DNA of 64,000 bases from Macrocystis pyrifera (taxonomy: Eukaryota > Sar > Phaeophyceae > Laminariales > Laminariaceae), in NCBI GenBank assembly GCA_031763025.1, contig JASSKH010000006.1:9173691-9237690 (forward strand). The letters are read 5' to 3'. The position numbers and the translations under genes were made by a program. Shown here in pieces: positions 12,223 through 54,188 of the stretch (position 1 is the stretch's first letter; every line of letters starts with the position of its first letter). Below the pieces are notes generated by a model. The model saw only the letters and a program-made list of their open reading frames with translations. It was not told the origin of the DNA and did not search any database.

Positions 12223-12761
12223 CCCCCCCCCCCCCCCCCCGGTTGGGTTGGCGTCGGTTGGCAACGACACTGTAAAACATGCCGCTCACTACGTGAGCTA
12301 GACATCCAGGGCACCGTTTGTTTTTTTTTGTTTGTTTTTGGCGGTCGCCCACAGCTGGTTGTCGAGTGAGATCATTTGTGCGAAGTAAAGAACCTTTACT
12401 CTGCACAAGGGAATTGATCGTATCACGTAGTGTTCAAGGTAAGGCACCCAAGAGGCAGTTACATAGTACTCCTATTGCTGTCTCTGGAAGTGGCTACACC
12501 GGAAATTAAACTAACTCATTGAGGTTGTCATCCATATGCAAGTCCGCCTCACAAGCGGTTCTTAGTAGGATGCAGCTCACCCTTCATGCGACTCGCCGGA
12601 CACCTCACGGCGCTTCGCGCTTGGTGCAAGCAATGTCTGCCTGGTCGGTGAAAACCCGACCATGTAGGGATGCGAGGGTCTATGGTCATACGACTACGGT
12701 CATGCATGAGATCGAGTACATCTCTCCTATCGAGTACACCCCCCCCCCCCCCCGCCCCCCG
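12223..12761 (-). repeat. Poly-G-bounded repeat, copy 3
   Basis: This is a minus-strand copy with C runs at 12223-12240 and from 12739 on. It matches copies 1, 2 and 4 almost throughout. A deletion of 15 bases relative to copy 4 (after aaaacccgac) removes exactly five codons of the conserved frame, which in this orientation reads on the + strand from 12519. Confidence 0.88.
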
Positions 12762-19837: not shown

Positions 19838-20004
<167 letters not shown>

Positions 20005-20226
20005 TTTATTTTTAAACGTCCAACGTCCTTCTCCACCACAATTCCATTGCCGTATTTCATGTACCTGAAATACAGCAACATTCTATCATAATCCATCCAT
20101 TTTTATTTTTCTCTTCATAAAATTTCAATCAATATAGTCCTCCTTGTTAATCACTTTTTTTGTTACCCACAAAAGAAATATTCACCAGTCCTGGCAAACC
20201 TCATAATAGTCTTACTAAACAATTAC

Positions 20227-20335
20227 TATTACGGGGGTCCATAGTTAACGGGACCAAATGTTGTTAGTAAAAATAGGTAAATATATAGGTTTTTATGTAC
20301 ACCATAAGTCCTATTAACTATGGACCCCCGTAATA
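20227..20335 (+). mobile_element. MITE family M, copy 2 (in arm A)
   Basis: The 109 bp have ends tattacgggggtccatag and ctatggacccccgtaata. It sits in arm A next to the block caattacta. The MITE in arm B (41575-41687) is in the same relative orientation but on the other side of that block. Confidence 0.88.
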
Positions 20336-20452
20336 TTAAATATTGATAATATGCCCCATCCCCCCATCCCTTCCTGAAGTAAAATACAACCACAAAAAAC
20401 TCCGTAGTCAACCCAAACCAAATAGAAAACCCCACATAAAATAAAATACGTT

Positions 20453-20470
20453 AAAAATATATATCACCAT
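20453..20470 (+). repeat. Left member of an 18 bp direct repeat flanking the long-TIR element
   Basis: AAAAATATATATCACCAT here recurs at 28733-28750 with one difference (G for A at the seventeenth base). Arm B has the site only once (complement of about 41433-41450, with one further difference). This supports a target-site duplication of unusual length. Confidence 0.7.
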
Positions 20471-21640
20471 AGATAGGCTATTTGCGACACCGGTGTCGTA
20501 ATTTCTTATTTGCGACGCGGTGTCGCAAATAAGCCCGCAAAAAGCGGCTTATTTGCGACACCGCGTCACGTTCGCGGCACACACCTCAGACTGGCTCCGC
20601 ACCGCCAAACATGTGTTGGCATGGTGCACGGTCATCATTGAAGCTATCGCATGGCCAAAACGGGCCAGGACTTGAGATATCTGGCTTCCGGGTGCACTCG
20701 CAAAACGTTCAGATCGGTGTCGCAAATACCGTGTTTGCGACACAGCGCCGTAGTTGTCGCACACGCTCTGCGTCGGCAACGCACTACCATTAGAGTCTCT
20801 GCATGGTGTGGGGTTACCATTGAAGCTATCGTGTAGCCAAAACGGGCGAGTACTCGAGGAGATATGCGGTACCCTAGTACACGGTCAGAATATTCAACGT
20901 GGCTGTTCTACTACTACTACTGCTGTGCTACGTACAACAGAGTAAACACACAAAACTACACATAACCCATCAGACTGCCTAGCCGACCAGGGCATCCAAA
21001 ATAATCGGGAGTTGACTGCGTAGCTCGACGAGGAGACTACGCATTATTTTGAGTGGGGCAGGTCAGTGCGCACAATCTGCTGAAGTTGCGGGTGTTGGTG
21101 AGTCTTCCATAGTAGTTGGAGTTCGCTCCGCAAATATTCTGCCTAAACGTACGGAAAAACCTCCAACCCGCGCACCAGTGTGTACAGCATACAACAGCAC
21201 GGTGGGAACTCTACGCAATAATACTGCAGGGCATCGAAGGACACCTTCCAAGCAGCCTATGAACTCCGCGACCTTCAACACGCGTTACACATACCGATTT
21301 CTTCGTTACCATGAACAAGGCGGCTAACCCCTCTGCCGCTTACATTGAACTCATGCAGTCCGCTGTGGGTTTCTATTGTATGTTTCACAACAATTAGAGA
21401 CAAACATCGGGAATCCGTTTACAAACCATGTGCTACGCATGTGCCCTAAGTTAGACTATTAATATTAATAGTATATGTCAATACTGCAGCAGTGTGGATA
21501 CTGCTGTGGACTGCTGTTGGTGCAACAAGCAGGATAATGTGTCGGAAAGAACGCGTACAGCGAACATGACGCATAGCTAGGCAAGCTGCAGCATGGCCGC
21601 CCTCTGTGCATCTATGGGGTGTGTTCGTTGCCTTAGTTAA

Positions 21641-21644
21641 TCCG
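21641..21644. other. Target-site duplication TCCG of the gypsy element (left)
   Basis: TCCG lies immediately outside the left LTR, and the same four bases follow the right LTR at 27403-27406. A 4-6 bp duplication is normal for Ty3/gypsy integrases. It shows that these two LTRs belong to one insertion. Confidence 0.85.
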
Positions 21645-21876
21645 TATGGCCTCTGCCAGATGATATCAGCAAGAGGGCTTCCAGCGAGGGACTCCACCAG
21701 TCTCGCTGGCCTCGCACTCAGTAAGTCTTGTTCTTAGAGCTTGTATTATCACGGAGTGATCCTCATCGGACCACGAGCCAGGTGGCTAGGGGACATCACA
21801 CAGGATCCCCGGCCACTGCTCCACTCACACATGCGATTACACTGAAACCTCCACGGCTTGGTATCTTTTGGCTACA
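21645..21876 (-). repeat. 3' LTR of the Ty3/gypsy element
   Basis: This 232 bp LTR is identical, base for base as I read it, to 27171-27402. In element orientation it starts TGTAGCC and ends GGCCATA. A short G-rich stretch (complement of cacccccaaag, 21878-21888) abuts it and is the likely polypurine tract. Identity of the LTRs implies recent insertion. Confidence 0.93.
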
Positions 21877-21954
21877 GCACCCCCAAAGCGAGTTCACTCG
21901 ACACGAACGAGCTTGACAAAACCAAAAAACCAAGACGAAATCGCATGCGGCAAA

Positions 21955-22440
21955 TCACAAATCAATGCTGAACTCTGAAGCAATTTTAATCTTGAGCGCA
22001 CGGGTCATCCGTAATTTGCGCAATTCCTTCACGACGAATTCAGGCGCAGCAGAATAAATCGACCGCAAAGACTCCCACGTGCGCTCCTCTGCTTCGAAAC
22101 CATCCCAATCGACCAAGACAATCACCTCGTTGGCATCATCTTCGGCCACATGCACCAAAGCATTCATGCGGCATTCACCCTGCGCAAAGGAATGTTGGAA
22201 AACATCCTTCAGATCAGCGGTGACGTTCAACGTCGCATCCGCATAAAATCGTAAACGAGCCACGTGAGCTTGATGCACCTTCCCAGAAACGATGTTCTGA
22301 ACTGAGTACACATGATCATGATCAGCTGCTACCACACGCCACGGACCAGTCCATGTGGACAACAATTTCGGTGTGACACCCTGCCGACGAACACGAGCAT
22401 ACAACACGAAATCACCAACCGCAAATTTTGGCAACACCAC
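21955..22440 (-). CDS. Ty3/gypsy integrase C-terminus with chromodomain, shifted frame
   Basis: This frame continues the gag-pol protein after a one-base frameshift. It begins VLPKFAVGDFVLYARV, then has the integrase C-terminal GPW motif (STWTGPWRVV). Near residues 108-130 it has a chromodomain-like segment with VIVLVDWDGFEAEERTWESL, the aromatic and acidic pattern seen in chromoviral integrases. Such domains steer integration to chromatin marks in well-studied chromoviruses. The stop is 78 bp before the 3' LTR. The first residues overlap the out-of-frame tail of gag-pol. There is no independent promoter or start; the ATG-equivalent (GTG) at 22440 is only where the open frame begins. Confidence 0.85.
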   Translation of the reverse strand: MVLPKFAVGDFVLYARVRRQGVTPKLLSTWTGPWRVVAADHDHVYSVQNIVSGKVHQAHVARLRFYADATLNVTADLKDVFQHSFAQGECRMNALVHVAEDDANEVIVLVDWDGFEAEERTWESLRSIYSAAPEFVVKELRKLRMTRALKIKIASEFSIDL

Positions 22441-25400
22441 CTGGCCCTGAGCCTGTTACGTTTGTTGTCGCGAGACACGGCAACAGCTGCGCGAATATCG
22501 GCGCAAAATCTCTCCTGCTCTGCAACGACTTCACGGACGTTCGCACGCAACAAGTCAGCATTCATCACGTCAACATTCCACCTGCCATCAGACTCAGAAA
22601 CGAGCGCCGAGAAATCGGTACGCGGAGCACGCCCAAACATCACGCTGTACGGAGTGCTTCGGTAACGTTCACGAAACGAAGTGTTCAAGGCCCACTGAGC
22701 GGCCGGCAAAACATCAACCCACTCCGAAACCTGACGACGCTGTTCTGACAGAATGGAACGCAGAGCACGTACCACCTCTTTTACCATGCGTTCACACGTA
22801 CCGTTCGACCACGGCGTGTAAGCGACAGCAAAACGATGTTCGATGTGCAACGCGTCGCTCAACAAAGCAAGCACCCTGTTCTTGAAATGCGTGGCGGTAT
22901 CACTCACCCACACACGCGGCACCCCCAAAGTCTTACACCAGGCTAGCAAATGCTTCGCTGTGACCTCGGCTGTACAAGCCTCGGCCGGTTCCAACGCCAC
23001 GTAGTTGGACAAATCATCCATGATGACCAAAACATATCGGAAACCATCCTCATCAGGCAGGCCATCGCTACCTTCGGGCCCGCTGTGGCCAACATACAAA
23101 AAATCAAAGTGCACCACTTCTCCCGGAGCGGTACCATGCACCGTGTCTCCGTAGGGACGAGGAATGAGTGCACCTGCACGCGTGTCTACACAGTGCAAAC
23201 ACTGGCGAACGAATTCGCGAACCTGAGAATCCATGTGAGGCCAAACACAATATTCCTTCAGGCGAAACAAAGTCGGCGCCACACCACGGTGACCAGCCGA
23301 GCGCATGTGCGCGCACACCATCAAACGAGTTTGAAGAGCAAGATCATCCGGCGGAATCCACAAGACGTCACGCACCCCAACACGCACACGAAACAAACCA
23401 TCATCGGCCAAGGTAGCTTGACCGAAGGTTGTCGAAAATTCATGAACACCAACGCCGATACGAGCGACAGACCTTTGTTGCGAGGCACGAATCACATCCA
23501 ATGCGGGAAGCGAATCGTCAGCATTACATGGGCTGTGCACGGCAACCGAACGAACAGGCACCGTAGGAACTTTGACCCAACGAGACAACAGATCCCCCCA
23601 ACAGTTTCGATCGCCAGGGATGTGTTCGATTGCATAGCGGTATTGTCCTAAAACACCCTTCCAATTCTCTAGGCGTTGTGCCATGGTCTTTGTGACCGTC
23701 GTGACACACTTCTCCGGATTGAAAATGTACTGCAAGTTTCGATGATCAGTAAAGATATGAACACCACCCCAAAGCAGGTATTCGAGCCTCCGGAACGTAT
23801 TAACGATCGCAAAACCTTCTTTGTCGACAGTCGCCCAGCGCAACTGCGAACCTGTGAACGAACCACTCAGAAATCCGAGAGGCTCGTGAGACATGCTTTC
23901 CAACGCCAATCCACTGCGAAATTCGTGTTCAGGCACTTGGGTGAGAAAACTACCCCAATGGAAATCAGAAGCGTCAGGAAACATCAAAACAACGCACCCG
24001 GGACGAGGATGATGAAGCGGCACTGCTTGCGCCACCAAACCCCGTGCGGCATTCCACGCCCGCACCCGATCCTCCGTCCACGCGGTATCCTTGATGACAC
24101 GATTGCGCGCCACTCGCTTAGTCCGACGTGTAGCCCCAACAAGGAGCTCCTCCAAAAAATCACGTAACGGTGCTACCGTTTCCGCTAAACGTGGTAACGA
24201 TGTACGCAACCAGTTGACAGCCTGCAAGAATTGCATTAGTTCTCCAGCGTTTTCGGGACGACGCATTTCACTTAAACCTTGCACTCGAGCGGGGTCATGG
24301 GACACGACACCATTGGAATACACCTTACCACACCAGACCAGTTCACGAGAGAAGAAGGTACACTTGTGGGCGGCGACAAACAGTCCAACATTCTCCAGGC
24401 GTTCAAGAATGTCATCAAGCAGCTGCAGAAGAGCTTCTTCGGTGTCTGCGAAAAAGAAAACGTCATCGACCCAAACTTTGCAATCCAAACCACGCAACAC
24501 TTCAGTCATGACACCTTGGAAATAAGAAGTCGCATTCAAAACACCTTGGGGAACACGGGTAGGCGTGAACAAACCGTCGCTTGTCGCCATGGTGAAGACG
24601 TCTTGCGCCTCCGGAGCCAAAGGCATCTGCCAGTACCCTTGAAGTAGGTCCAGCTTGCCGAAGAAACGCGCCCCCAGCAGATCTCCCATGTCTTCATGGT
24701 TGGGCATGACGCCCGGGGACTTCTCCACCTGTGCGTTCACCGCCGAGTAGTCGCTCACCAAACGGAAAGAGTCCTTCTTGGGCACCGCCATCGCCGGACT
24801 CGCCCACACCGCCTGGATGTTGTGGTAGACAAAGCCAAAAAACACCAAAGCAGCAATGCACTTCGAGAGCCAGTCCCTTTTCGTCGGTTCGTACCGACGT
24901 GGCGTTGCCTTGACAGGCTTCGCCTGTTGCTTCAGCTGCACTCGCATCGGCTCCACTTGCGCTGGCGGATCACCACACAGCGCACGGCGAAAAGCACCCA
25001 CGCGACGAGCCAAAATTTCGCGCAAACGGGTTGCTCCGCCGACGCTTAATCCACTCTGCTCTGCCTGCTGCACGCTGTCCTCCAACGCCCGTTCTCGGGC
25101 CGTCCGCTCCTCCTCCGGATCCATGAACATGTCTGGCCCCCGGTCGACCAAATGTTCCACCGCCTTGTCCTCCGGAGCATCCACCGTAGCCTCGGTCTGA
25201 AAAGCACGCACGGAAACCGTCACTCTGCGCGCCGCAAGGTAACTCGGAGTCTCCACACCGGTCGATACCGGCACTGCGCGAGGGCGAAGCTTCTCCAGAG
25301 CTTCACGGTAGACGTCGATGCCAAGAGCTTTCATGGTAGCCATGCCAAACAGAACGACGTTATCTGTACCAGGCATGACCGCGAAAGTGATGGGCTCCAA

Positions 25401-26963
25401 TTTCACCGCTCCCCACGGCGTCCGTACACTCACGGCAATCGGCACCGTTTTGTGCGTGACCATCACTGAAACACCCGTAGCGGTTTTCGCCTGCTGCGGG
25501 CCATTTTCGAACGGAATTTGCAGATCGGCGCCGCCGAAATGCGAAGACAGCTGCTGAAGTAAGCCGACACCGATGGACGTGAGCGCCGACCCCGAATCAA
25601 GGATCACACGCGCCATCAGCGAACCAACCGACCCTGGCAAAGAGAGATCAGCGCGTAAACACTCAGCGCTGCGATCGACAGGCACTTCACCTGCCGTTGA
25701 ACTCTGGTCGGTACCAAGAGTCACCTGACGCCATGGCTGCCCTCCTACAGCCGGCGCCGAAGAAATAGAATCGGCGGTCCACCCCGACCAAGACGTCGAA
25801 TATACAGACGGTTCCGGCGCTACCGCCCCTGCAGCAGCACCAGACACTGACTCCGCCCGCTCGGTGGATGGCGAAGTTCTCGCTCCAGCAGCACCCACCG
25901 ATGTTCCAGCTCCTCCAACGTATACAGCTCGGCCGGCAACAGACGAACCAGATCCCGACCCAGCGGCTCCTGCCGCTGGCGCACCAGAAGTTGAAGAAGC
26001 AACAGCAGAAGTTCCACCGCCCGCTGTCAATTGATTGCCACCACGGCCACCGCGCCCGCGTCCATGGTTGAATCTGCCCCGGCCGCCATTGCGGCCCCCG
26101 CGATACCCTGACGACCCGCGCCCACCACTGCTGGGAGCTGTGCCGCCACCGCGAGCTTTTGGGCAATCAGAAACATAATGGTTGGGATCACCACACTCGA
26201 AACAGACGCGAACAAACGACTTTTTCGCGGACTGCTGCTGTTTCGGTTTCTGCTGCTGTTGGCGTCGCGGTTCAGCTGCCCCTGCAGCATCTTTCCGACC
26301 ATACGCCTCGATGAATTTCCACTGTTCTGCAGCAGAAAAAATTTGGTCCATGACCAATGCCGGGTCCTTCTTCCACCCTGCAGCGTACGTTAGCTGACCT
26401 TTTACGTACTTTTTGAACTCGGACGGCCATAAGCCATCCACCAACGCCATGCTCACAAATTCCGCCGGTCCGGGCAACCACGAACGGTCCTGCGCGCGGT
26501 ACATGGCATGCACCGCGTGATTCTCCGCAAAATACTTTTCCATAGCGGAGTTTACCATCATCGCGCGGTCTTTGACGGATGTTTCACCGCCCTGCTTTTC
26601 ATCGCGCCTCATTGAGAGAACGCGACGCAAGTCCGCTGCCGCCCGCGAGGTGTCAAATCTGTTGCTGGTGGTTGTGTAACCAGCGTGCTGCCTAACAGCG
26701 TCCAACAACTCCGAGGCGGTCATCGTAGTCTGATGCTTGTAAAATCCCTCAAAACACCGATGAATGTAATTGGGGATAAGCTGGCCCATGCTCACTTTGG
26801 AGTGCTGAACCACCCCCTGAGCGTTGGCGAGCTGCAGCCGTTCCTCATAATCGAGGTACGCTGCGTAAAAAACACGAGAGGCCTGCTCGGTCCACACCTC
26901 TCCGTATTTCGGTGGAGTCAGAGACTCCCCTACCACCAGCGGCGTGCTTGCCGTGTGCGCCAT
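22437..26963 (-). CDS. Ty3/gypsy gag-pol polyprotein
   Basis: A single ORF encodes Gag and Pol, starting at ATG 26963, 207 bp inside the 5' LTR. Order of domains: Gag (residues 1-250) with zinc knuckle CFECGDPNHYVSDC (254-267); a Gly/Arg then Ala/Ser-rich linker; protease with DSGS (456-459); reverse transcriptase (about 660-920) with SPAMAVPKKDSFRLVSDYSA and active-site WVDD (831-834); RNase H (from FPDASD, about 995, to TDHRNLQYI); integrase with zinc-binding H1219, H1225, C1255, C1258 and catalytic triad D1287, D1355, E1391 (35 residues between the last two). The Pol order PR-RT-RH-IN and the chromodomain downstream mark it as a chromovirus-like Ty3/gypsy element. The frame slips after residue 1509; the last 35 codons of the ORF are off-frame. 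All catalytic residues I can check are present. Confidence 0.95.
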
Positions 26964-27163
26964 AATCCACAGCAGTCCACCTGGACTCTACTGTAATAAC
27001 GGAGAAACTGCCGCCTGACCTGTGCGTCCTCCAGCTCCCGGAGCGTCCTCCCCTGCTGTGCGCTTCAAGCCGTTTCGATCCGTCCAACGGGCCAACTGCC
27101 TTCCCAGCTGTGACCCAATACTCCGCAGCCGAAAACTCCTCCAACAGAAGTTCCGCGAATATC

Positions 27164-27175
27164 TAGATATTATGG
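27164..27175. other. Expected primer-binding region of the gypsy element
   Basis: Immediately inside the 5' LTR the element strand reads ATATCTAGATATTCGCGG. It contains a 12-base palindrome (27159-27170, atatctagatat) and no TGG-starting tRNA complement. The primer is therefore unidentified: it may be an internal tRNA fragment or a self-priming end. Confidence 0.4.
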
Positions 27176-27402
27176 CCTCTGCCAGATGATATCAGCAAGA
27201 GGGCTTCCAGCGAGGGACTCCACCAGTCTCGCTGGCCTCGCACTCAGTAAGTCTTGTTCTTAGAGCTTGTATTATCACGGAGTGATCCTCATCGGACCAC
27301 GAGCCAGGTGGCTAGGGGACATCACACAGGATCCCCGGCCACTGCTCCACTCACACATGCGATTACACTGAAACCTCCACGGCTTGGTATCTTTTGGCTA
27401 CA
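27171..27402 (-). repeat. 5' LTR of the Ty3/gypsy element
   Basis: This is the identical partner of 21645-21876. It should contain the promoter for gag-pol, but no obvious TATA box can be singled out. It is followed outward by the TCCG duplication at 27403-27406. Confidence 0.93.
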
Positions 27403-28732
27403 TCCGACAAAAACTGTGCATAGCGTTTCGAAAGTTTGTTCAGCCCTGTGCGGCAGAATGATAGGCGTTGGTAAACGCCTGAGGGATAGGCGCTTTTACA
27501 CGGCTGTTCAAGGGCAATTAAACAAACACATTGGTGGGTGATGATGGTTGCACGGAACGAACGCCGATTTTACTTCGGTACTATGATACTGCTGTACATG
27601 ACATACACCCACCTATTTTGATAGCATCCACAGACAAGTATACAAAAACCATATACAGAGCCCAGCGTGAACAAACTTCTGTGCTCTTCATTTGTGCCCA
27701 TGTTAATAGACGCGTAAACAGAGCACCCGGCGCTTTGAACGAAACCAGCGCTCTCAATTATAGTACGTACCACTTATTAGAACACGGCGCGGCAATATAA
27801 CCAAGTTAATTTCAAATCCATTGATTCACGAGGACGTCGCTAACGATCGATGTACTCGTGGAAACATGCTGTACAGTGGCATAGTCCGAGATCATGCTAT
27901 AAATAACCCACCGTGGTTGTCCTGGTCTAAACGGGGCGCGCGCGACGAACGTCGTGCGATGTCGTCAAATGCGGCTTTACGACACCAGTCTGACATTCTG
28001 ACAGTGCACTAGGATGACCAGGGTACCATACACAGCAGTAGCTACTACTGTCTTGGCCCGTTATGGATACACGCGAAATAAGGCTTATTTGCGACATCAG
28101 CCTGGGTGTACTAGGATACCCAGTATATCTCCTCGAGTACTGGCCCGTTTAGGCTACACGATAGCTTCAATGGTAGCCTTACACCATGCTGAGACTCTAC
28201 TCGTAGTACGTCGCTGATCCGGAGCGTCTGCGGCAACCACGTCGCGGTGTCGCAAATACGGTATTTGCGACGGCCAGAAGGTTCTGCGGGTGTTGTACCA
28301 GGATACCCCATATCTCCTCGAATACTGGCCCGTTTTGGCTACACGATGGCCTCAATGGTAGCCTATGCCATATGCTGAGACTCTACTGATAGCGCTTTGC
28401 CGATCCGGAGCGTGTGCGGCAACCACGTCGCGGTGTCATAAATACGCCTTATTGGCGACACGCGTAACGAAATAAGGCATATTTGCGACAACGATCTGAA
28501 CGTTTTGCGGGTGCACCAAGAGGCCAGATATCTCCTCGAGTCCTGGCCCGTTTCGGCAATACGATAGCTTCAATGATGGCCCTGCACCATGCCAACACAT
28601 CCCTGGCGGCGGGGAGCCAATCTGAGGTATGTGCCGCGAACGTGACGCGGAGTCGCAAATAAGCCGCTTATTTGCGACACCGTGTCGCATATAAGAAATT
28701 ACGACACCGGTGTCGCAAATAGCATTACCCAA

Positions 28733-28750
28733 AAAAATATATATCACCGT
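28733..28750 (+). repeat. Right member of the 18 bp direct repeat
   Basis: AAAAATATATATCACCGT lies here, after a few bases (attaccca) that separate it from the TIR end. See 20453-20470. The outer sequence then continues into arm A. Confidence 0.7.
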
Positions 28751-29313
28751 ACAAAATAAAATAAATAAAACAGACCACTAGTTATTTTTCCCTCCGAATC
28801 ACCGTTCAACCTCCCAGGACGCCACAAATACATAATATTCGTATCGCCCTATCATTCTACTCACCCAAGCACATCCTTCAAAGAAACCGACTTTGGAAGA
28901 GGCGTACCCTTGTGTTCTAACGACCTAGACGACCCGTCGAAGTTAGTGGTCCACGACGCTGGTCCCCATTTTCCCCCCCCCCCTGCAATCAATCTCCTCC
29001 TAGTCGTTTCGTTGTTGGCCCCGTCAAAGAACTGAGCCCGTGTCCTCACCCTCACAAATTTCCATCCCGCCCCCGGCCACCAAAACCACCTCCACCCCCA
29101 GATAATGGAGCCAAACCGAAGAACCCCCTGACGCCCCCCCCCCTCCCGCTCCCCTTCTGCTCCCTCCTCCTCCAGTTCCTCCCCCTCCTCGTCCGAACCT
29201 CCCCCCGAACAGAAACCGCCCGATGCCGCCCCCCCCCCGCCGGCACTGCTGTTGCTGGCCTGAATATCGTGCCTAAAACGACACGACTGCCCCAGCGGAC
29301 ATCCCTCACTCTT

Positions 29314-29744
29314 TGTTATGGAAATGTTAGCAAATTACCATGTATAAGTCAATGTTCAAGTAACACTGCTCTTGCAACGTAGATTATAGTCTATGTACCG
29401 TTTCGGCATGCAACGTATGTTATGCGGAGGAATAGCACCGTATCGTCTATGCTCGTAGGACCGAGTACTTCACTCTCTGATGTGATCTCTACCCGGATCG
29501 TGATGGTATCCTAGCTGTTCATCTCTGGAGCTGCCGTCATCTGGACTCCTGCATTCTCTGCGGAGTACATCTGTGTGTGTTGGCCATCTAAGCGCCAGTG
29601 TTTACGTGTTATCACGTCTTCTTCTCTGTACCGTACGGGAGTATCTTACTGCCCGGGCCACCGCTTGTCCGGTGTCATCTCTCGACTAACACCGAGAACA
29701 AAGCCGCTGCCTACATTGTCAGGGGACAACGCAATTATCCATAA
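29314..29744 (+). repeat. 5' LTR of the Ty1/copia element
   Basis: The LTR is about 431 bp, beginning tgttatggaaatgttagca. The partner at 35738 begins the same way and aligns throughout, with a high density of substitutions and small indels, so the insertion is old. The next bases, 29745 onward (aggattaagagcctcgattt), resemble a decayed primer-binding site for initiator methionine tRNA, as is usual for copia elements. Confidence 0.82.
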
Positions 29745-30625
29745 TAGGATTAAGAGCCTCGATTTTGGCGAGTAGTGTGTACACACATCCTCTCTGCGGA
29801 GGTTTCTGCCGGAGTGAGCTTTCTGCTGGAGGTCTACATTGAGTCAACCCGTCTGCTGTTGAATCCGGACTGACCACCTGGGTTCTCTGCTGCACATTCG
29901 GTACGCTACTGCTGTGTGTGAAGCATTCGGGGGCATAGCTTCTAGGCGTTGATTCCGGTCGGCGATTAGAGTTGTGCAGGATTGTTGGTTTGTGCGTGCA
30001 GAGTACTGTTCTGGTGCTCCGCGTGTGTGTAGTTGACTTCCAGAAATCACCTGCGCATGTCGTATCGTGAGGCGTAGTCTGTCCAAGATACCTTCCAACT
30101 GCTGGGAGCCGACTTAGTAGCGTGTGTAGGGGTGAGGATCTGGCTAGACCGGGTGCATCCGTTGCGGCAGCCGCATAAGTACAACGTGAATTGCATCACG
30201 TTACCTGCGCGTGCGTCGTCACGCGAGGTTTGGTCTACATCCAAGACCACCTTTCTCGTACCGGTTTGTGGTGCGTGTGTAAAGTTGAGGATTCGACCAG
30301 TCTGAGCAGTGCATCTGACCCGTGTGACTGCCGGACGTGGCCGGAGTTGACGCTTCCGACGCCAAACACCGCAGCTTAGTCACCTGTGGTAGGTTGAACC
30401 TGTGCCTCGTAGAGCTTAGGAGTCTGGGCGGATACTGACGGGTGTCCGTCAGGCTAGGATTGTGAGCTTCGGGGATGAAACGCCTACATCCGTGTAGCAA
30501 CACTATCACCCTGCACCGTCCCTTGCACGTCGAGCTTACTCAGGTACTCGGGGTGATATACGTGTGGGGGGAAAGCCTTCGCGCCTTGCGCGTAGCCCCG
30601 GTCCCTGGCTAGGGGTCGGGAAGCG

Positions 30626-31690
30626 ATGGCGGAATCGTCTTACAACGCGTTCAAAAAGACGCTCGAAACCGTGGGCCTGTGCAAGGATCAACGGGATTAA
30701 AGAGAGTGGGCGGACAAGTTTCGTATGGCGGTGGGTCTCCATTCGAAGGAACTCCTGAAGATCCTCGACGGGGAAACGTGTCCCGAGGGCGATGGGGTTG
30801 ACGATGTCCCAGCAGCATACAACTGAAAAAGCCAAAACAACCACTTGTACTCCCTTATCTACTTCTCAACTGTCGAATCCGCCACCATCACCACGAAGAC
30901 TTCCAAAGGCAAGTCTGAGGGCGAAATGGGTGATGGGCTGCGGCATGGGCGGCCCTCAAGGAGCGTTCCGCCGGCAATACCAAGGAATCCCGGGGTGCCC
31001 TCCGGGAGCAGCTCCACGCCGCCAAGCTCCGACATGGTCAGAACGTCATCGACTTCCTGGCAATCATGGACGACCTCAAGCTTCGGCTCGACGACATGGG
31101 GGAGTCCACATCGAAGGAGACGTTCGAGGACATGGTGTTGAATGCTCTCGTCCACTCGTCGGAGTACAACTTCCTGCGGGACATGCACTACAGGCACCCG
31201 ATTCCAGACGTGGAGGCGATGAAGCGAACCGCCGTCAACTTCTTCATCGACGCACAGTCGAGGACATCGTCGGGGCCCGCGGTCTCAGGCCGTGGTGCGG
31301 CTATGGCCGCGACCAGCAACGACCGGTGCCACAACTGCAACGAGTACAGGCACTACCAGCGAGACTGCCCTAAACCGGCCAAGAAGAGCCGGTCGAAGCC
31401 GGGAAAGTAGCAGTGGAAGAAAAAAGGCAAGAAGGGCGAAGGCGGAGACCCCTCTCCGAAGTGGTGCAGCTATCACAAGACCACCACTCACAGCGACCGC
31501 AAGTGCAAGGCGCAGAGAGAGATCCAGTCTCTGACTGCGCCCCTGGCGCTGCTGCAGCCTCCGGGGCAAGGCAGCCTCGGCCACGTCGTGAGCGCACACC
31601 TGGCCGCTCTTCCTCAACCACCGTCGGGGGCCGCCGGCTTCGCTCGCGTCGGGAGCGCCCTCATGACTCTGCCTCCTCCGCGGACACAGA
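30626..31690 (+). pseudogene. Ty1/copia gag, broken
   Basis: Gag-like sequence starts at ATG 30626 (MAESSYNAFKKTLETVGL), meets a TAA at 30698-30700, and continues in shifted frames. A clear block is at 31066-31410: MDDLKLRLDDMGESTSKETF, then a zinc knuckle CHNCNEYRHYQRDC (31327-31368) and a basic tail before a TAG at 31408-31410. Past that stop the same frame continues as WKKKGKKGEGGDPSPKWCSY up to about 31560. Several other stops and shifts occur. The knuckle has correct C-C-H-C spacing. Gag would package element RNA in a virus-like particle; this copy cannot. Confidence 0.8.
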
Positions 31691-31923
31691 ATAGCTTTGG
31701 CTGTTCGTTCACCGCGATAGACGTGTCCCTGCCAGCGGCAGCCACGCCGTCTCCTGGGGCTCTCACCACGGAGTCCGGTGCTAAACCGACAAAATCTGTG
31801 TCTGCTTCGGCGGCATCACTGCCAAACTACCGTCTATCCGATGGGGTCTTCCGAGCGCTCATGGCGAGCACTCCCGACCTGTAAGGTGGAGGTAGGCTTC
31901 TCACCGACGGCACCTACATTGAG

Positions 31924-34116
31924 ATGTTAGTGGACAGCGGGGCATTATCTTACTTCGTCGACCCGGAGCTGACCCTGGGACTGCTAGACTCAATGCGGGA
32001 CTATGAACCTCTGCAGGTTCCTCACCAGATCGTCGCGGCTGGCCAGCACGCCCTGTACGGGGTAGCTGCGGGCACCATCAACGGCACCGTTACCAATGAC
32101 GGTGGGAACAAGCGGGACATCTCCTTCCGTGCAATCATCGTACCTGGGCTGGGGACGAACCTGTTCTCCGTCTCCCTGGCCATGGTGAAGGAGATTAATG
32201 CCTTGTTTTACCAGGACAAACCGCGGTTGCAGAAGGGCGACCTCGTTGTGCCGATGAAGACCCTGGGCGTCGACGCAACGACCGGACAGATCATGTGCTC
32301 CATCGCTGTTGCGCTTGAAAATCGTGCTGGGATCTCCGTGAAGCCTGACGGTACAGTCTTGAAGGTGGTTTCGGCTGATGTGTGGTACCGTCGCATGGGT
32401 CATACCAACCGCAACAGCATGAAAATTCTGCTGAAGATGCCGCACAGCGGTGTTGAATACAACGTTGATCTGACGCCGTGCGACGTCTTCCCCCTCGGCA
32501 AGAGTGAGCAGCAACCTCACCCAAAGCAAGCGTCGTATGACGTCAAGCGGCCTTTAGCGCTTGTCACTGTCGACACCATGGGACCGATCAACCCTCCGGC
32601 ACTGGGCGGCTACACCTACGTCACCAAGTTTGTTGACCAGCCGACGAAGTGGAAGGAGACCTGCATCATCAAGAGCAAGACACACACCATCGACTCCCTC
32701 GTGCTGTTCAACAAGGCCGTCGTGATTCCGTCCGGAGAGCGTTTAGTCCGCCTGAGAGGGTACAAAGGTACGGAGTTTAGAAGTGAGGAATTCCGTCGGT
32801 ACTGTCTCGACATCGGCGTCAAGTTGGAGTTTGTGTCTACCAACACCCCTCAGCAGATCGGCGCGAACGAGCAGGCAGGTCGGACGCTTGCTGGTATCGT
32901 GCGTTGTTTGCTTGCTGATTCGGGTCTTTCGAGTTTCCTCTGGGGGGAGTTGATGCAGACAGTAGCCTACCTGAGCAACCGCGTCCCACATGCGGCATTG
33001 GGTAACGGTACGCCCTACAAGGCGCTCGACGGCATCGATGCTTACCTCGGGAACCTTCGGGTGATCGGGGCTAGATCGTTCGTGCACGTAGAGACCCACA
33101 CCAAGAAATTGGAGCCGCGTGCTTGGGAAGGACGCCTGGTTGGGTACAGCCCGGACAGCAAGTCTTACCGGGTTTACAGTCCCGCGACGAAACGTGTCAG
33201 GCAGAGTCGAAATGTTGTCTTCATTGAGACGCCCTCTGCACTGCCTCACCTGGAGGTCGGTGGCTTTCACGACGGAAAGTTCACGCTCGACGAGAGTGAC
33301 GACTTGATACGAGATGTGCGCGCATACGCGTCTAACCAAGAAATCGGTTCCCTAGACGCTGCAGATCTGTTAGTGACTGAACCTTTGGGGCAAATCCGTG
33401 ATGTCACCAACTGCGACCTTGGCACTAGCCCTGCTGCCCCTACCCCACCTGCTTCGCCTGGGGGGAGTGAGCCCTTCCGATCAGAGTTCTCCGTCACCTG
33501 GCCCTCCGCCGCCGGCTTCGCCATCGGGATCTACGCCATCTGGTGCTGCGCGCGGGGGTTCTTCGCGTGGTGGTTCTTCACGTGGTGGTTCTGCGTCGCG
33601 CGGAGATCGCGCGACTACACCGGCCATAACCAGATCTGCGGCAAACCAGTCCAACGCCAGGACCCTCATCGAGCTGAGACGGCACGGTTTTGCGTACTTC
33701 ACGAAGGGGGAGGATCAGGACGTCGCCCACAAGGACGACATGCCTCGGTTCGTGGAGTACGCGTATGCCGTGCAGATTTCGCAGCCGGGATTCCTAGACC
33801 GTACTACGAAGCCATGAAGCTGCCGGACGCCGCACTTTGGGAAGCTGCTGCGGACAAGGAGATGGCTAGTCTGAATGAACTAGGAGTCTACAAGCTCGTT
33901 CCGATACATTTTGTTCCTCCGGGACAGAAAGCCATCAACTCAAGGTGTGCTTTAAAGCGCAAGGCTGACAACTCATACAAGGCGCGGGTTGTAGCTCAAG
34001 GCTGGAACCAGGTTCCGGGCCTCGACTGCGGCAACACATTCGCTCCGGTTTGCCGACTGCATCGCATCCGAATGGTACTGGCCATAGCAGCGCAGCTGGA
34101 CTTGGAAGTAATTTAG
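31924..34116 (+). pseudogene. Ty1/copia pol: protease, integrase and start of RT
   Basis: This 730-codon open frame holds the first part of copia Pol. The protease DSG is at residues 4-6 (MLVDSGALSYF), so its N-terminal side is cut off. The pre-integrase region has WYRRMGHTNRNS, and the integrase core begins with VTVDTMGP (first Asp). The second Asp, normally in a SDNGxEF-like motif, is lost: the sequence is RGYKGTEF. The Glu-bearing TPQQIGANEQAGRTL segment is present. About residues 535-630 look off-frame (Trp/Cys/Arg-rich), indicating compensating indels near 33480-33800. RT starts with ALKRKADNSYKARVVAQGW. The frame stops at a TAG (34114-34116). Order PR-IN-RT proves copia type. It is inactive. 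Confidence 0.9.
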
Positions 34117-35336
34117 TTGGACGTGAAAACTGCTTTCCTATATGCGGACATTGAGGAGGAAGTGTTGGTAGCACAGCCGCCTGGTTGTGAGACCAAGGAC
34201 AAGGATGGAGACCCTCTGGTCCTGAGGCTGGAGGAAAGCCTCTACGGGCTAGCTTAGAGCACCGGGAATTGGTTCCACACAATTGATCCCGTCCTTAAGG
34301 TCATCCCGTCTCATCCCGCTGAAGTCCGATACCTGCATCTATATGTACCAGCATAAGGGTGTCACCATCATCTTCACCTTGTACGTGGACGATCTACTAG
34401 TGATTGGTGGCAACATCAAAGTGATCGAGGAGATCAAGGCACAGCTAATGGGCAGGTTCAAGATGACCCACATGGGCGATGTGTCGCGTGTACTTGGGCT
34501 GCAGGTCACCGGCAACCATGCGGAGAAGACGCTCAAAATTGACCAGGAGGACTACACCAAGTCCGCGCTGGAGCGGTTCGGCTTCGCAAACTACAAGCCT
34601 ACGCTAACCCCCGGTCACGGAACTGAGCTCTCCACCAATCAGCCGGAGGAGACACTGCTGAACGCCGACGAGAAGCAGAGGACCAAGCGATCGCAGGCAC
34701 GGTTATGTACCTGGCCTCTGGTCTCAGGTATAACATAATGTACAGCTCGAGTCAGCTCTCTCGTGCTATGTCAAATCCGTCGAAAATGCAAATGGTGGCG
34801 GCCAAGCACATTCTGCGGTACCTGGCGGGGTCCACCAACTTCAGAATAGTGTACAAGGGGGGAGGCTTTGAGCTCACGGCTTTCTCGCACTCAAACTGGG
34901 CTAACAACCCAGACAACGGCAATTCAACGTCGTGCTACATCATGATGTTGGCCAGGGCTCCCATCAGCTTCAAGTCTGGTCGTTAAAGCCTAAATGCCAT
35001 GTCCACGATGCAAGCTGAGCTGGTTGCATCGGCACTCGCGATATAGGAAGCCGTGTTCTGCATGAACATAGTGACGGAGCTAGAGTTTGGGAGCAGTTCG
35101 TTCAATTGCTGCTTCACTGCGACAACACTGCAACTCTGCATGCGCTCGGGAACCGTTCGTTCAGTTCTGGCACCAAGCACATTGCACTATGTTTCTTCTA
35201 CATCCGCGAGCTGGTCACCGACGGGACAATTTCGACTCACTACATCTCCACCAAAGACAACCCCGCCGACATCGGGACCAAGCAATTTGCCGGGCCACGC
35301 TTCCAGCAGCTACTAGACATCATCAGCGACGTCTGA
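34117..35336 (+). pseudogene. Ty1/copia pol: rest of RT and RNase H, broken
   Basis: Directly after the TAG the same frame reads LDVKTAFLYADIEEEVLVAQ and SLYGLA before another TAG (34255-34257). A shifted frame from 34283 carries the RT active site YVDD in TLYVDDLLVIGG (about 34380-34415). RNase H follows in another frame: SHSNWANN, then a stop at 34984-34986, TMQAELVASALAI, a stop at 35041-35045, and finally HCDNTATLHALGNRSFS and DNPADIGTKQFAGPRF, ending TGA near 35334. At least four stops and three shifts make it non-functional. The YVDD, the Asp/Glu residues of RNase H and the typical copia ending are all still readable. Confidence 0.88.
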
Positions 35337-35737
35337 CGTCAACGTCGTCGTCAAAACCTTGTATTATATGTTTGTGTCATCAACATTGTGTTTAGTGTTT
35401 GTGTGTTTGTTTGTGAATCTGTTATTTGTGTGAATCAGCTTGCTATTTCAATAGTCAACATTCGGCCTCGCACCATAACTGGTTGAACGAGCCATGTAGG
35501 ATTGAAGGTTATGGTAAAATAGGTTTGTGCAGGATACGATACCAGTACTTTTGCAAGCACATGAATGTACGCACAAAGGGCACGAAAACATTGTTATGGT
35601 TTCTACTGGCTAACGCATCGAATGAACTGCTTGCTTGCATTGAATGAAGTTGTTTCTTTACTACTTCTATTATCACTGACTTGATGTGTTTTCTTGACTT
35701 CATTGTTTTCATCATCGAATTAAAAACTGAGGGGAAG
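35337..35737 (+). other. Copia 3' untranslated region and polypurine tract
   Basis: About 400 bp without a coding frame separate pol from the 3' LTR. The last bases, aaactgaggggaag (35724-35737), are a classic copia polypurine tract lying flush against the LTR start tgttatgg. Confidence 0.8.
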
Positions 35738-36174
35738 TGTTATGGAAATGTTAGCACATGACCATGTATGAGTCAATGTTCAAGTAGCACTGCTCTTGTA
35801 TCGTAGATCATAGTCTATGTACCGTTTCGGCATGCAACGTATATTATGCGGAGGAATAGCAACCGTATCGTCTCTGCTCGTAGGACCGAGTATCTCACTC
35901 TCTGATGTGATCTCTACCCCGGATCGTTATGGTATCCTAGCTTCCCGCTCATCTCTGGAAGCTGCCGTCATCTTGACTCCTGCATTCTCTGTGAAGTACA
36001 TCTGTGTGTTTTCATCATCTAAGCGCCAGTGTTTACGTGTTATCACGTCTTCTTCTCTCTACCGCACGGAAGTATCCTACTCCCCGGGCCGCCGCTTGCC
36101 CGGTGTAATCTCTCGGCTAACACCGAACGCACAGCCTCTACCTACCATGTCAGGGTACAACGCATTTACCCATA
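35738..36174 (+). repeat. 3' LTR of the Ty1/copia element
   Basis: The LTR is about 437 bp; see 29314-29744. Its end is blurred. Beyond it atctcctaatgatgg resumes the arm A sequence, which in arm B reads (complement) ctcttccaatgacgg. The first five bases (atctc against ctctt at 29309-29313) are a likely but mutated target duplication. Confidence 0.8.
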
Positions 36175-36179
36175 TTTAT

Positions 36180-37720
36180 CTCCTAATGATGGATGCACGT
36201 ACCGTGTGGGCATCCAGACGCCTCCAACTCTCTTACTCTCGTAGAAACGCCAAGCTCTTGTGTCGCCTATGCCAGCTGCCGCGGATACATAAGTCCTCCC
36301 GTCAGCGTGCCCTTCTTCTTCCCCGACGGACCTCCTCTTCCCTCTCCACTCCTCTTCTTCGACCCCCCCATCACTGATTGCAATACCACCTGTTGCTACA
36401 CCCCTCTGATTCGATCAGTTGCAGAGTGAGTCCTCGGAACGTTGGTCTGCGGCAATTCTGCAACGCTCTGACCCAGGATGGGCGGACCATTCGGAAAAGA
36501 CGACTGTATGGCGGCCGCTACGTCTCCGACCCGTTTTGACACGTCTACGAAATCCTCATCAATCGACGCGGTGATCGCGTCAGATATATGGAGCCCGAAT
36601 TTCCCTGCGAGGACGTCCTGGTACGCGAACTACAATTGTCGAAGCTCATGCAGTTCCCGAAGAAAACCCCCCGCTCAAGCGTAATCCCCCAAACCAACCT
36701 CGAAACCCCTCGTCAACGCTGCGAAACGGTCTTGAACAGTCACCTTAAACTCCCGACAGAATCGCTTTGTCCACCGATACCACCCAGACCCCTTTCTTCG
36801 GCGCGAACTGATCGATGCGGACTCCGGAGCGCGTTGTTAGCGTCTTCAATACAGCGTCGTTCACTACCAGATCTTCCCCGAGCATTTCTTGAATACTCTC
36901 CTTGGTGAACGACTGCACTACTGCTGCCATCGCATAAAATCGTTTGGTGCTGTCCTTGCTCCATGCTGTTACTCGTCGCTTCGTTGCCTCCTTTTCTTCT
37001 ATTGCCTCATTGGGATTCGACACGACACCCACCCCATCGTCCTGAGATCCCCCTCCCCGCACCAAATGAGCTCCCTCCCCAACTCCCGGTTGATTCTGTT
37101 GCAAGGCGTTTACTTGCTCAACCAACCCTTGAATCATTGGAAGAGCAACCGCGAGCTGTACGATAAAGGTAGTTATGCGGAAGGGGTGTTTAGTGGATCT
37201 GATCTGCCGCTGGTATCGGTATCCCAACACCCTCTCCGGCGACCCCCCCCCCCCTGCTGACCCCCAATGCCACCATGACCAGCCCCTGCACCCTCTCCAA
37301 TATCTATATTCTCCCCATCCCCGTCGACCTCACCTCCAGCATGCGCCATGGCCTCACCAGCCGCAGCCGCAGCAGGGGCAGCAGCGTTCAACGCTCCCGC
37401 TTTGGCATCTCACTCGGCTGCCGCAGCGGCATTCTCCGCGTCTACTTCGGCAGCTACGATCGCTTCATCATTCCCCGCGGCGGCCGCAGCCGCTACATCA
37501 ACAACACCTGCCGCACCTTCACTCGCCCCCAAGGTTGCCCGACCCCCTTTCCCGTGCCGCGCCGCCAACGACTGCGCTGCCACCTAAAGGATGTGCTTTC
37601 TTCGAAGCTTCGGAAGCAGCTGCTGGTGCTTTGTGAGCGCTCGCGTAGTGACTCATTCCTCTCTCAACTCCCCCACTTTCGAAGGATAACAAACCCCCGC
37701 TGCTCGTACACCCCCACGAG
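36180..37720 (-). pseudogene. DIRS-type Gag-like gene, arm A copy
   Basis: Coding pieces read on the minus strand from about 37650 down. They start MSHYASAHKAPAAASEASKK, pass an Ala/Gly-rich low-complexity part with several stops, and give one long open piece at 36745-37230 with IQGLVEQVNALQQNQPG, then TAWSKDSTKRFYAMAAVVQS and EMLGEDLVVNDAVLKTL. The gene continues beyond the copia insertion at 28861-29313: a Cys/His segment CPLGQSCRFRHDIQ (about 29313-29268), then a Gly/Glu-rich stretch and the ending KSVSLKDVLG (stop at 28861). The Cys-rich segment resembles the CCCH knuckle of DIRS-like Gag proteins; the identification rests on that and on DIRS-like YR fragments nearby, so it is moderate. 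Stops, shifts and the 6.9 kb insertion make it dead. Confidence 0.62.
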
Positions 37721-37924
37721 TAGAGTACAACGGTAGATAGTCTTCATCCTCACTGGTCTTTTTCCTCACTGTGTCAACCCTTCCCAGGTTGTCTCCCTAG
37801 TTCAACCAACTGCACTCGTCATGAGCTATATGCACTTCTTGCCCATCCCCTCTAAGCATGCCAACGATTCATTACCTCTCCACAAACCCCAAATTTACTC
37901 CGTTCAATCTTCTACCTCTTTTTG

Positions 37925-39100
37925 TTGGTAGAGCCGAATTTGGCACACGAAATTGGAAACAGCCGGTCCCCTCCACTCGGTCATCCGATTATTACCCTGC
38001 CAGCATGCACCACAACAGCAGCAGCATTGGTGGCCGCCACGACTTGGTTGAATGAGTACGGCAGACGGGTGTTGCCTTGGCCGGGGAGAGGTGGATGCCC
38101 GGGATGCCGCGGTTCAGTGGCACCAGCACAGCATCCAGTGCTCTGACTGGGCGTCTTTCTGCCGGAGTTGCCTCAAACCCATGTCCCCAGCACGGCACGC
38201 CCCACCGTAACCGGAAACAAGCACGTAGCGCCAACTGGACCTATAGGGTTTGGCGGACACGTCTCAGCACGAGCACGAGACGCGTCCGAGCTGCGCCTTC
38301 GTCTATGCCATGAGCCAAGTCCATAACACTGGATTTTACAACTTGAGAAAATGACAAGTAGTTGAGAGATAAACGTCTAAGACCTATGCCAATGTCAACG
38401 CGAAGTCTAAAATAATTATTTCAAAAATATTGCTTTGAAAAAACAGTCGAGAATATCCTCGTACCGCCGCCGTGGGAAAAAAAAACAAAAAAATGTTTGA
38501 TTTTTTCCTCTTTTATTTTATAAATTTTGAAATACGTTAGCTGTGAGTTCGACTGATTAAATAGTTGGCACTCAACTTTGCGAGCTGCGTCATACGTCCC
38601 GTCTATATTCCATTTTTACCGAATTTTGCAAGTATTGTGATAAACCGAACGCGCGTATTCTATATGTAATTCCTTGTCAAAGATATAAGCCAGCAGCTCC
38701 CCTGGATGCTGCCCGGGTCAACAGGACAATTTGAAATAATCATTCTGCGCACTGATACTCTAAAACTCGAACGAGGGATAATGATACGATGTTGCAACAT
38801 GTTGAAACCTTTTCATTTCACAAATATTTTATAAATTTTGAAATACGTCTATTCATTTATTTCTAACGGCTGCAGGCGGCGCAATTAGTTTTCTCTCGTT
38901 GCAAACTGTCAACACGCTGATAAAAATGAGCTCGTGCGACAATAGATGCTTGATCTCGATATAGACTCAGCCTACGGCCAACCCGCTTGGTATCGGGCAA
39001 GGCCAACGAGTGTAATTGACGGCATCGAAGATAGAAAGTGAATTCATGCTCTAGCAGGCGAGACCTTGCCGGCGGCGTCCTGCGGTATCCCCCCAAACCT
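37925..39100. other. Spacer between the two arms
   Basis: This 1.2 kb matches neither arm. It is G/C-moderate to 38330 and then A/T-rich. The phrase tttataaattttgaaatacgt occurs twice (38518-38538 and 38829-38849), about 310 bp apart. No gene is evident; a minus frame at 38863-39096 has no domain. Confidence 0.5.
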
Positions 39101-39389
39101 GAAAAAAAAGAAGTAGAAGATTGAACGGAGGAAATCTGGGGTTTGTGGAGAGGTTTTGAATCGTTGGCATGCTTGGACAGAGGGGATGGGCAAGAGGTTC
39201 ATACAGTTCAAGACGAGTGCAGTTGGTTGAACTAGGGAGACAGCCTGGGAAAGGTTGACACAGTGAGAAAGAAGACCAGCGAAGAAGAAAACCAGTGAGG
39301 AAGAAGACTATCTACCGTAGTACTCTACTCGTGGGGGTGTACGAGCAGCGGGGGTTTGTTATCCTTAGAAGGGGAGTTGAGATAAGAAT

Positions 39390-41312
39390 GAGTCACCACG
39401 CGAGCGCGCAAGAAACGACAGCAGCTGCTGCCGAAGCTTGGAAGAAAGCACATCCTGTAGGTGGCAACGCAGTCGTTAGCGGCGCGGCACGGCAAGGGGG
39501 GTTGGGCGAAGTAGGGGCCAGTGCAGGTGCTGCAGGTGCTGTTGATGTAGCGGCTGCGGCCGCCGCGGGGAATGATGGTGCGATCGTAGCTGCCGAAGTA
39601 GACGGGGAGAATGCTACTACGGCAGCCGAGTGAGATGCCAATGCAAGAGCGGTGAACGCTGCTGCCCTTGCTGCGGCTGCGGCTGGTGAGGACGTGGCGC
39701 ATGCTGGAGGTGAGGTCGACGGGGATGGGGAGAATATAGGTATTGGAGAAGGTGCAGGGGCTGGTCATGGTGGCATTGGGGGCTAGCAGGGGGGGGGTCG
39801 CCGGAGAGGGTGTTGGGATACCGATACCAGCGGCAGATCAGATCCACAAAATTCCCTCCGCATAAATACATTTATCGTACAGCTTGCGGTTGCTCTTCCA
39901 ATGATTCAAGGGTTGGCTGAGCAAGTCGACGCCTTGCAACAGAATCAACCGGGAGTTGGACAGGGGAGCTCATTTAATGGAGGGAGAGATATCTCAGGAC
40001 GATGGGGTGCGTGTGATGTCGAATCCCAATGAGGAAATAGAAGAAAAGGAGGCAGCGAAGCGACGAATAACAGCATGGAGCAAGGACAGCACCAAACGAT
40101 TTTATGCGATGGCAGCAGTGGTGCAGTCGTTCACCAAGGGGAGTATTCAAGAAATGCTCGGGGAAGATCTGGTAGTGAACGACGCTGTGTTGAAGACGCT
40201 AACAACGTGCTCCGGACTCCGCATCGGTCAGTTCGCGTCGAAGAAAGGGGTCTGGGTGAGATGGTGGATAAATCGATTCTGTCGGGAGTTTAAGGTGACT
40301 GTTAAAGGCCGTTTCGCAGCATTGATGAGGGGTTTCGTGGTTGGTTTGGGGGAATACGCTCGAGCGGGGGGTTTTCTTTAGGAACTGCACGAGGTTCGAC
40401 AATTGTTGTTCGCGTACGCAGCGAGATACCAGGATGTCCTCGCAGGAGAATTCGGGCTCCATATATCTGATGCGATCACCGCGTCGATTGATGAGGATTT
40501 CGTGGACGTGTCAAAAGGGGTCGGAGATGTAGCGGCCGCCATACAGTCGTCTTTTCCGAATGGTCCGCCCATCTCGGGTCAGAGTGCTTCAGAATTGCCG
40601 CCGCCTAAAGTTCTGAGGACTCGCTCAGCAACTGATCGAATTAGAGGGGTGTAGCAACAGGTGGTATCGCAATCAGTGATGGGGGGGTCGAAGACGAGGA
40701 GTGGAGAGGGAGGAGGAGGTCCGTCGGGGAAGAAGGGCACGCCGACGGGAGGAGTTACGTATCCGCGGCAGCTGGCATAGGCGACACAAGCGCTTGGCGC
40801 TTCTACGAGAGTAAGAGAGTTGGAGGCGTCTGGATGCCCACGCGGTACGTGAATCCGTCATTGGAAGAGTGAGGGATGTCCGCTGGGGCATTTGTGTCGT
40901 TTTAGGCACGATGTTCAGTCCAGGAACAGCAGTGCCGGCGGGAGGGGAGCGGCATCGGGCGGTTTCAGTTCGGGGGGGGGGTTCGGACGAGGTGGAGGAG
41001 GAACTGTGGAGGAGGAGGGAGTGGGGGGGGCGGGAGGGGGGGGGGGCGTCAGGGGGTTATTTCGGTTCGTCTCCAATATCTGTGGGTAGAGGTGGTTTTT
41101 ATTGGCCGGGGGTAGGGTGGGAATTTGCGAGGATGAGGACACGGGCTCCGTTCTTTCACGGAGCCAACAACGAAACGATCAGGAGGAGATGTACTGCAGG
41201 GGGGGGAGATGGGGACCAGCGTCGTAGACCACTAACTTCGACGGGTCGTCTATGTCGTTAGAACACCAGGGTATGCCTCTTCCAAAGTCGGTTTCGTTCT
41301 AAGGATGTGCTT
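39390..41312 (+). pseudogene. DIRS-type Gag-like gene, arm B copy
   Basis: The gene starts near ATG 39388 (MSHHASAQETTAAAAEAWKK) and goes through an Ala-rich part to a TGA near 39631. The same frame continues as an Ala/Gly-rich stretch to a TAG near 39784; then come TAWSKDSTKRFYAMAAVVQS (40069-40128), a stretch at 40381-40654 with ARYQDVLAGEFGLHISDAIT, a Gly/Ser-rich part with stops, the knuckle-like CPLGHLCRFRHDVQ (about 40878-40920), a Gly/Glu-rich region with long G runs, and the ending MPLPKSVSF. Compared with arm A most amino acids agree, while stops and shifts are at different places. Both copies thus decayed independently from a once intact gene. A CCCH zinc finger of another family is the main alternative. 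Confidence 0.6.
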
Positions 41313-41574
41313 GGGTGAGTGGCATAATAGGGTGACACGAATAATATGTATTTATGACGTCCTGGGAGGTTGAACGGTGATTCAGAGGAAAAAATAACTT
41401 GGTCTGTTTTATTTATTTAATTTTTTTAAATTCTGTACGGTGAAATATATTTTTGATTATATTTTTATTTTCTGTGAGGTTTTCCATTTAGGTTGAACAC
41501 GGACTTTTTTGTGGTTGATTATTACTTCATGAAGGGATGGGGGGACGGGGCATACTATCAATAGTAATTGTTTA

Positions 41575-41687
41575 CTATCACGGGGGTCCATAGTTAATAG
41601 GACCCATGGCATATACATAAAAACCTAAATATTTTCCTTTTTTTACTAACAATATTTGGTCCTACTTACTATGGTCCCCCCGTAATA
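41575..41687 (-). mobile_element. MITE family M, copy 3 (in arm B)
   Basis: The ends are tatcacgggggtccatag and ctatggtccccccgtaata. It is preceded by agtaattgttta, which in arm A lies on the opposite side of the MITE. Inside it keeps the family signature actaacaatatttggtcct. Confidence 0.85.
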
Positions 41688-41871
41688 AGAATATTACGAG
41701 GTTTGCCAGGACTGGTGAACGTGTCTTTGTGGGTAGCAGAAAAATAATGAGCCGGGAGGACTATAATATGGCACTGCGACAAAAGGTAAAACATTCTTGT
41801 TGATTACGACGCTTTCCTAGTGGTCAATACCCGATAATATAAGGGGTACCGAGCGAGATAGATTACGACTT

Positions 41872-54089: not shown

Positions 54090-54188
54090 CTGCGAGTCAC
54101 AACCGCGAGATAAAGAAAAGGCATGTGCGTATCAGACACAAGTATAGATTTTGAATTGCCGTAACTCGACAAATGATCGCGGCATCAC

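Follow-up and report, generated by a model that had tools for sequence, protein, structure and literature searches.

The giant kelp Macrocystis pyrifera carries a locus where mobile elements of several kinds lie inside one of two inverted, similar stretches of DNA, raising the question of what these two stretches are and whether the order of insertions can be read from them. A preliminary description of the locus regarded the stretches, named arm A and arm B, as the arms of one Gag-bearing element, and proposed a four-level nest that gives a dated sequence of invasions. The stratigraphy of nested LTR retrotransposons, with one transposable element lying on another, has long been known in plants (PMC6911290, PMC7251063). 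In Ectocarpus, most giant DNA transposon families are described as carrying nested insertions (PMC12477816). A limited literature search on nested insertion of retrotransposons in kelp surfaced only a sunflower paper, which is no proof of absence.

Materials and methods

The window is the whole 64-kb stretch of DNA that was analysed (C220:9173691-9237690), and the genome assembly searched comprises 537,376,219 bases in 223 contigs. Among the 38 other scored places of the arm family, 13 were fetched for comparison. The count of shared changes used 11 of these 13 copies, with L039 and L042 omitted as too distant.

That the nest is an artefact of assembly is extremely improbable. The region is rich in repeats; against an artefact, the window contains no N, and the published assembly was built from ~100x PacBio reads with a haploid female gametophyte as the DNA source, according to the giant kelp genome paper (PMC10498591). 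Moreover, three kinds of junction (the MITE TA, copia and the TIR repeat) each carry a target duplication or are matched by an empty site in further copies.

Table 1. Features of the nested locus (window coordinates)
Feature	Position	Strand	Remarks
Copy A (arm A), dispersed CCCH-protein family	19876..37915	-	5' terminus 37915; leftward through (ATT)n tract at least; broken by TIR element, copia and MITE
MITE in copy A	20229..20333		TA-flanked
19-bp direct repeat (target duplication) of TIR element, left copy	20453..20471		0/500 shuffles
Long-TIR (foldback-like) element	~20472-28732		TIRs of ~190-bp tandem units; holds gypsy; no recognisable transposase
Gypsy (Metaviridae-type)	21645..27402	-	LTRs 21645-21876 and 27171-27402 identical; TSD TCCG; inside TIR element
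19-bp direct repeat of TIR element, right copy	28733..28751		One mismatch
Copia (Pseudoviridae-type)	29314..36174	+	LTRs 29314-29743 and 35738-36174; frames broken
Dispersed A-tailed repeat in spacer	38378..39109	+	Ends beside 5' end of copy B
Copy B (arm B), CCCH-protein family	39113..41765	+	5' terminus 39113; stops at 41765; without copia and TIR element
MITE in copy B	41578..41685		TA-flanked; different TA, 14 bp from site in copy A

Results

Alignment of the arms and empty sites

Self-comparison of the window bore out the claimed collinearity of three arm A parts with inverted arm B: 20133-20471 matched 41765-41436, 28753-29313 matched 41424-40865, and 36181-37926 matched 40865-39102, without overlap or disorder and with breaks only at the long-TIR element and copia. 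Ungapped identity was 84.6% in the outer part (MITE included), 87.9% in the middle part and 91.9% in the inner part, with K values of 0.173 ± 0.026 (MITE included), 0.133 ± 0.017 and 0.086 ± 0.007, respectively. The overall K with the MITEs omitted was 0.103 ± 0.007 over 2480 sites. A chance match of the arms is excluded because a whole-genome search with the inner 1764 bp of arm B recovered arm A at E = 0.

The sites of copia and the TIR element are both empty in arm B, as the preliminary description held, and the insertion of both elements into copy A was likewise upheld. A search of 10 further genomic copies found the copia site empty in all 10; for the TIR element, five of the 10 had a site that could be placed, and each of these five is empty. 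Arm B is therefore not needed as the sole reference, since other genomic copies have the same empty sites.

The arms as copies of a dispersed family

Of 1144 candidates in the genome, 40 places were scored as matches to the inner part of arm B, arm A among them. Ten of the 13 fetched copies, as well as both arms, have the 5' terminus GTAGAAG or a slight variant of it, and the flank upstream of it differs from copy to copy, arms A and B included. On these comparisons, the arms are two head-to-head copies of a dispersed family (copies A and B hereafter), each starting from the family's 5' terminus, and not halves of one element.

In copy A the family sequence does not stop at 20133 but extends leftward across 118 bp of non-repetitive DNA and an (ATT)n tract (19876-20014), and two other copies match this stretch with identities of 88.8% and 89.6% (simple repeat included in both figures). 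L032 and L043, two of the 13 fetched copies, cross the supposed outer end together with copy A, and L035 runs nearly as far. Given that L032 and L043 continue through it with copy A, 20133/41765 is only the truncation point of copy B, and the positions 20130 and 41767 formerly taken for element ends are not ends. Copy B lost or never had its 3' end. The segment 41448-41765 had also been considered as a shared flank, as suggested by C209, and was rejected since L032 and L043 carry it. As a separate observation, GGGTTA telomere-like repeats adjoin the (ATT)n tract of 139 bp at copy A's left end (19838-20014); at the corresponding position other family copies carry an AAT tract, and L032 runs on into a minisatellite.

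Terminal inverted repeats of one large Gag-bearing element (20130-41767) would match the inverted orientation, the length of ~2.6 kb each and the collinearity of the two arms. This reading is very improbable, however, given that the family is dispersed as single copies, that no other two of the 40 scored places, as read from the table, lie in opposite orientation within 10 kb, that the supposed outer end is not an end, and that no target duplication is visible around 20133/41765.

The label Gag is not supported either. Pfam searches of the arm protein returned only CCCH-finger matches below the curated cut-off and no capsid match, and an open frame of 542 codons in another genomic copy of the family had no Pfam match at E up to 5. 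One structure prediction for the arm protein (350 residues) was all helical with a mean pLDDT of 52 and a pTM of 0.28, a poor model that lends the label no support. In the viral contigs covered (two of eight scans), no relatives of the arm protein or of one gypsy piece were found. No direct repeat was found inside copy B and its flanks, with the 3' end of the family lying beyond the compared region.

Kinship of copies A and B

Copies A and B were sisters in the tree of the inner part with 15 copies (support 100/99.9), the branch common to them being 0.0196 long and each tip 0.045, and trees that forced A or B together with L031 were rejected (p-AU 9e-5 and 2e-6). The next part, with 11 copies, again gave A and B as sisters (97/95; shared branch 0.021). 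In one part, copy B diverges faster (0.086 vs 0.050), a point against the duplication favoured below. Relative to the 11 other copies, 28 derived substitutions and two indel columns are common to A and B. One stop codon is likewise shared and was seen in none of the 12 further copies that have letters at this position; a second A/B stop codon also occurs in L035. The differences between A and B number 34, 27 and 28 at 324, 324 and 323 first, second and third codon positions, so the third position is not favoured; such an even spread is expected if both copies were already dead. On these patterns, one copy derives from the other, with an already mutated copy giving rise to both, or the two were homogenised by conversion.

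The overall explanation that we regard as probable is that A and B are sister copies by local inverted duplication, followed by successive ordinary insertions. One mutated copy would have been duplicated locally in inverted orientation to yield the pair. A rather unlikely alternative is that the family inserted here twice independently, giving A and B, and that gene conversion between the inverted copies afterwards homogenised them in part. Both copies begin at the exact 5' terminus of the family with different 5' flanks, which argues for transposition or conversion, as a random inverted duplication need not produce it. In the outermost part, with only 139 sites, the sister signal is missing (site patterns 2:1:0 and 0:0:2), as would also be expected of two separate insertions with partial conversion. 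By contrast, the equal shared branches of 0.020 and 0.021 in two adjacent parts and the spread of informative sites throughout the inner part, 32 vs 1 in conflict, speak against this alternative. It is also unlikely that the mutated copy, or a lost source with the same mutations, was mobilised in trans and transposed again nearby to form copy B. Such re-transposition agrees with the exact 5' terminus in both copies and with their common mutations; however, copy B is cut at its 3' end and displays no target duplication by eye, and no source copy occurs among the 13 fetched of the 38 others scored.

LTR retrotransposons inserted in the locus

The two 232-bp LTRs of the gypsy element have 0/232 differences (95% upper bound 1.28%), and the target duplication is 4 bp. 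Its single open frame of 1552 codons (22332-26987), searched in three pieces, gave profile matches above the cut-off for RVT_1, RT_RNaseH, Integrase_H2C2, rve and a zinc knuckle. The RT-RNaseH region precedes the integrase in one frame, and this domain order, together with the LTRs and target duplication, identifies a Ty3/gypsy element.

The LTRs of copia are 90.7% identical (K 0.100 ± 0.016 over 430 sites), and the 5-bp target duplication has decayed to three of five bases. SH3_retrovirus followed by RVT_2, both above the cut-off and split over broken frames, identifies a Ty1/copia element; an rve match stayed below the cut-off (17.8 of 32.6). Among 493 candidates, 40 were scored; 38 of these are other copia LTRs, which share 89-92% identity with the left LTR of the window copia, and the copia family is uniformly old.

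Separate insertions of MITEs

Each copy holds a MITE of ~105 bp, a short TIR element with TA flanks and empty sites. In copy A it lies at the TA after the position equivalent to 41563, and in copy B at the TA of 41576-41577. Most of the best genomic copies listed show 94-98% identity to the MITE in copy A, whereas the stretch in copy B shows ~78-85%, and this closer match to genomic copies speaks for separate insertions. The MITEs were inserted separately after the A/B split, one per copy. A shared MITE as a mark predating the pair was dismissed since the two sites differ and the three other family copies inspected have neither MITE. Across the genome, 40 places were scored of 1791 candidates. 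Further MITE copies lie near 11361-11472 and 49822-49933 of the window.

The long-TIR element and its 19-bp repeat

The TIR element has the long inverted termini of tandem units seen in foldback elements, and no fewer than 40 places in the genome begin at a common terminal base region. The 19-bp sequence that flanks it on both sides is single in arm B, and 0/500 shuffles of the two 44-bp flanks matched the repeat. Its length departs from the target duplication of ~9 bp expected for foldback elements. A target duplication of ~19 bp is longer than those known for the cut-and-paste superfamilies. The second both-ended copy of the family (C128) has no clean 19-bp repeat, only an imprecise offset repeat, and on this account it is doubtful that target duplications near 19 bp are made whenever this family, found at 40 or more places in the genome, integrates.

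Foldback, Tm1 and Galileo are reported as non-autonomous elements with long composite TIRs of tandem units (PMC3169594, PMC4168063, PMC3573991), and the TIR element is alike. In contrast to these elements, it has no transposase tying it to any superfamily. Tm1 makes mostly 9-bp target duplications, 8-10 bp in 45/53 cases as reported (PMC3169594), whereas the direct repeat in the window is 19 bp.

Order of events

Copy A took copia, the long-TIR element and a MITE; the TIR element took gypsy, and copy B took its own MITE. Each insertion occurred by an ordinary mechanism, namely, LTR-retrotransposon integration with 4-5 bp duplications, TA-targeting by the MITEs and foldback-type transposition. 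The depth of the nest is three (arm copy, TIR element, gypsy) and not four, with copia as a side branch. Expressed as changes per site and lineage, the A/B split lies at 0.045-0.052, copia at 0.050 ± 0.008 and gypsy below 0.0064; the common ancestor of A and B lies at ~0.065, counted from the main fork of the family. The A/B split (K 0.103 ± 0.007) and the copia insertion (LTR K 0.100 ± 0.016) are indistinguishable in time. Gypsy is the youngest nested insert, lying inside the TIR element and having no LTR differences vs 10% for copia. The TIR element precedes gypsy and has no internal clock. The 'dated sequence of invasions' is thus retained only as a relative order with gypsy last, in which the split and copia cannot be ranked and the TIR element is placed only as earlier than gypsy. 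No substitution rate was found for kelp. A rate of 4.07e-10 per site per generation is given for Ectocarpus, another genus, with an interval ~30-fold wide (PMC10254074).

Other repeats and open frames in the window

The A-tailed repeat of the spacer, absent like the two MITEs from the preliminary description, is also inserted in a further arm-family copy that lies ~10 kb outside the window. The table of matches behind this observation omitted those shorter than 60 bp, as well as arm B matches with a start in the MITE part (bases 2441-2619).

A 438-bp piece of copy B (40010-40447) recurs three times elsewhere on the contig with 97-98% identity, and two of these occurrences were fetched (L047 and L048, 301-738 of the reverse strand). 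There it sits in another dispersed repeat, with a 3-bp overlap at both junctions, and the uninterrupted form of the host repeat was found at eight places in the 284 kb searched. A fragment tree of rows longer than 250 bp grouped the piece with copy B to the exclusion of A (100/99). This looks like fragment capture and amplification.

A repeat of ~540 bp has five copies in the window (3329-3865, 7825-8372, 12229-12757, 51258-51783 and 51840-52384), four of which are 91-94% alike. Rfam gave no match at gathering scores. Ten host-side frames had no Pfam match at E ≤ 0.01, and an open frame of 422 codons (52916-54184, minus strand) had neither a Pfam nor a PDB match.

Discussion

The locus consists of ordinary nested transposons, and no known principle is overturned. 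Gag-only retrotransposons such as TR-GAG are dispersed, non-autonomous elements with a single protein frame, and the arm family resembles them in these traits. TR-GAG elements are cited in PMC12477816; in contrast to them, no LTRs were found at the ends of the arm family, the 3' end of which was not reached, and its protein has no Gag profile match.

In the accounts of nested LTR retrotransposons, including REANNOTATE (PMC6911290, PMC7251063, PMC2672092), order is likewise drawn from nesting and LTR divergence, with copia and gypsy elements in older repeats. The kelp locus differs from the plant cases in having a second copy and other genomic copies that give the empty sites directly, and is otherwise the same. 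The giant nested DNA transposons described in Ectocarpus, also a brown alga, hold unrelated transposable elements as the kelp locus does, and a further likeness is the report of copia families with a single gag-like frame and of many non-autonomous elements (PMC12477816). Nested insertions in Ectocarpus are described as often fixed among copies (PMC12477816), whereas none of the kelp copies checked shares the inserts of copy A.

Only the 19-bp repeat around the TIR element may be out of the ordinary. If duplications near 19 bp were true of the TIR family, it would use a different strand-transfer geometry. For the arm family, the apparent two-armed element becomes a pair of sister copies from a CCCH-protein repeat family that is undescribed. 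The locus cleanly records, at one place in the giant kelp genome, how insertions followed one another, and kelp transposon families can usefully be calibrated with this relative order.
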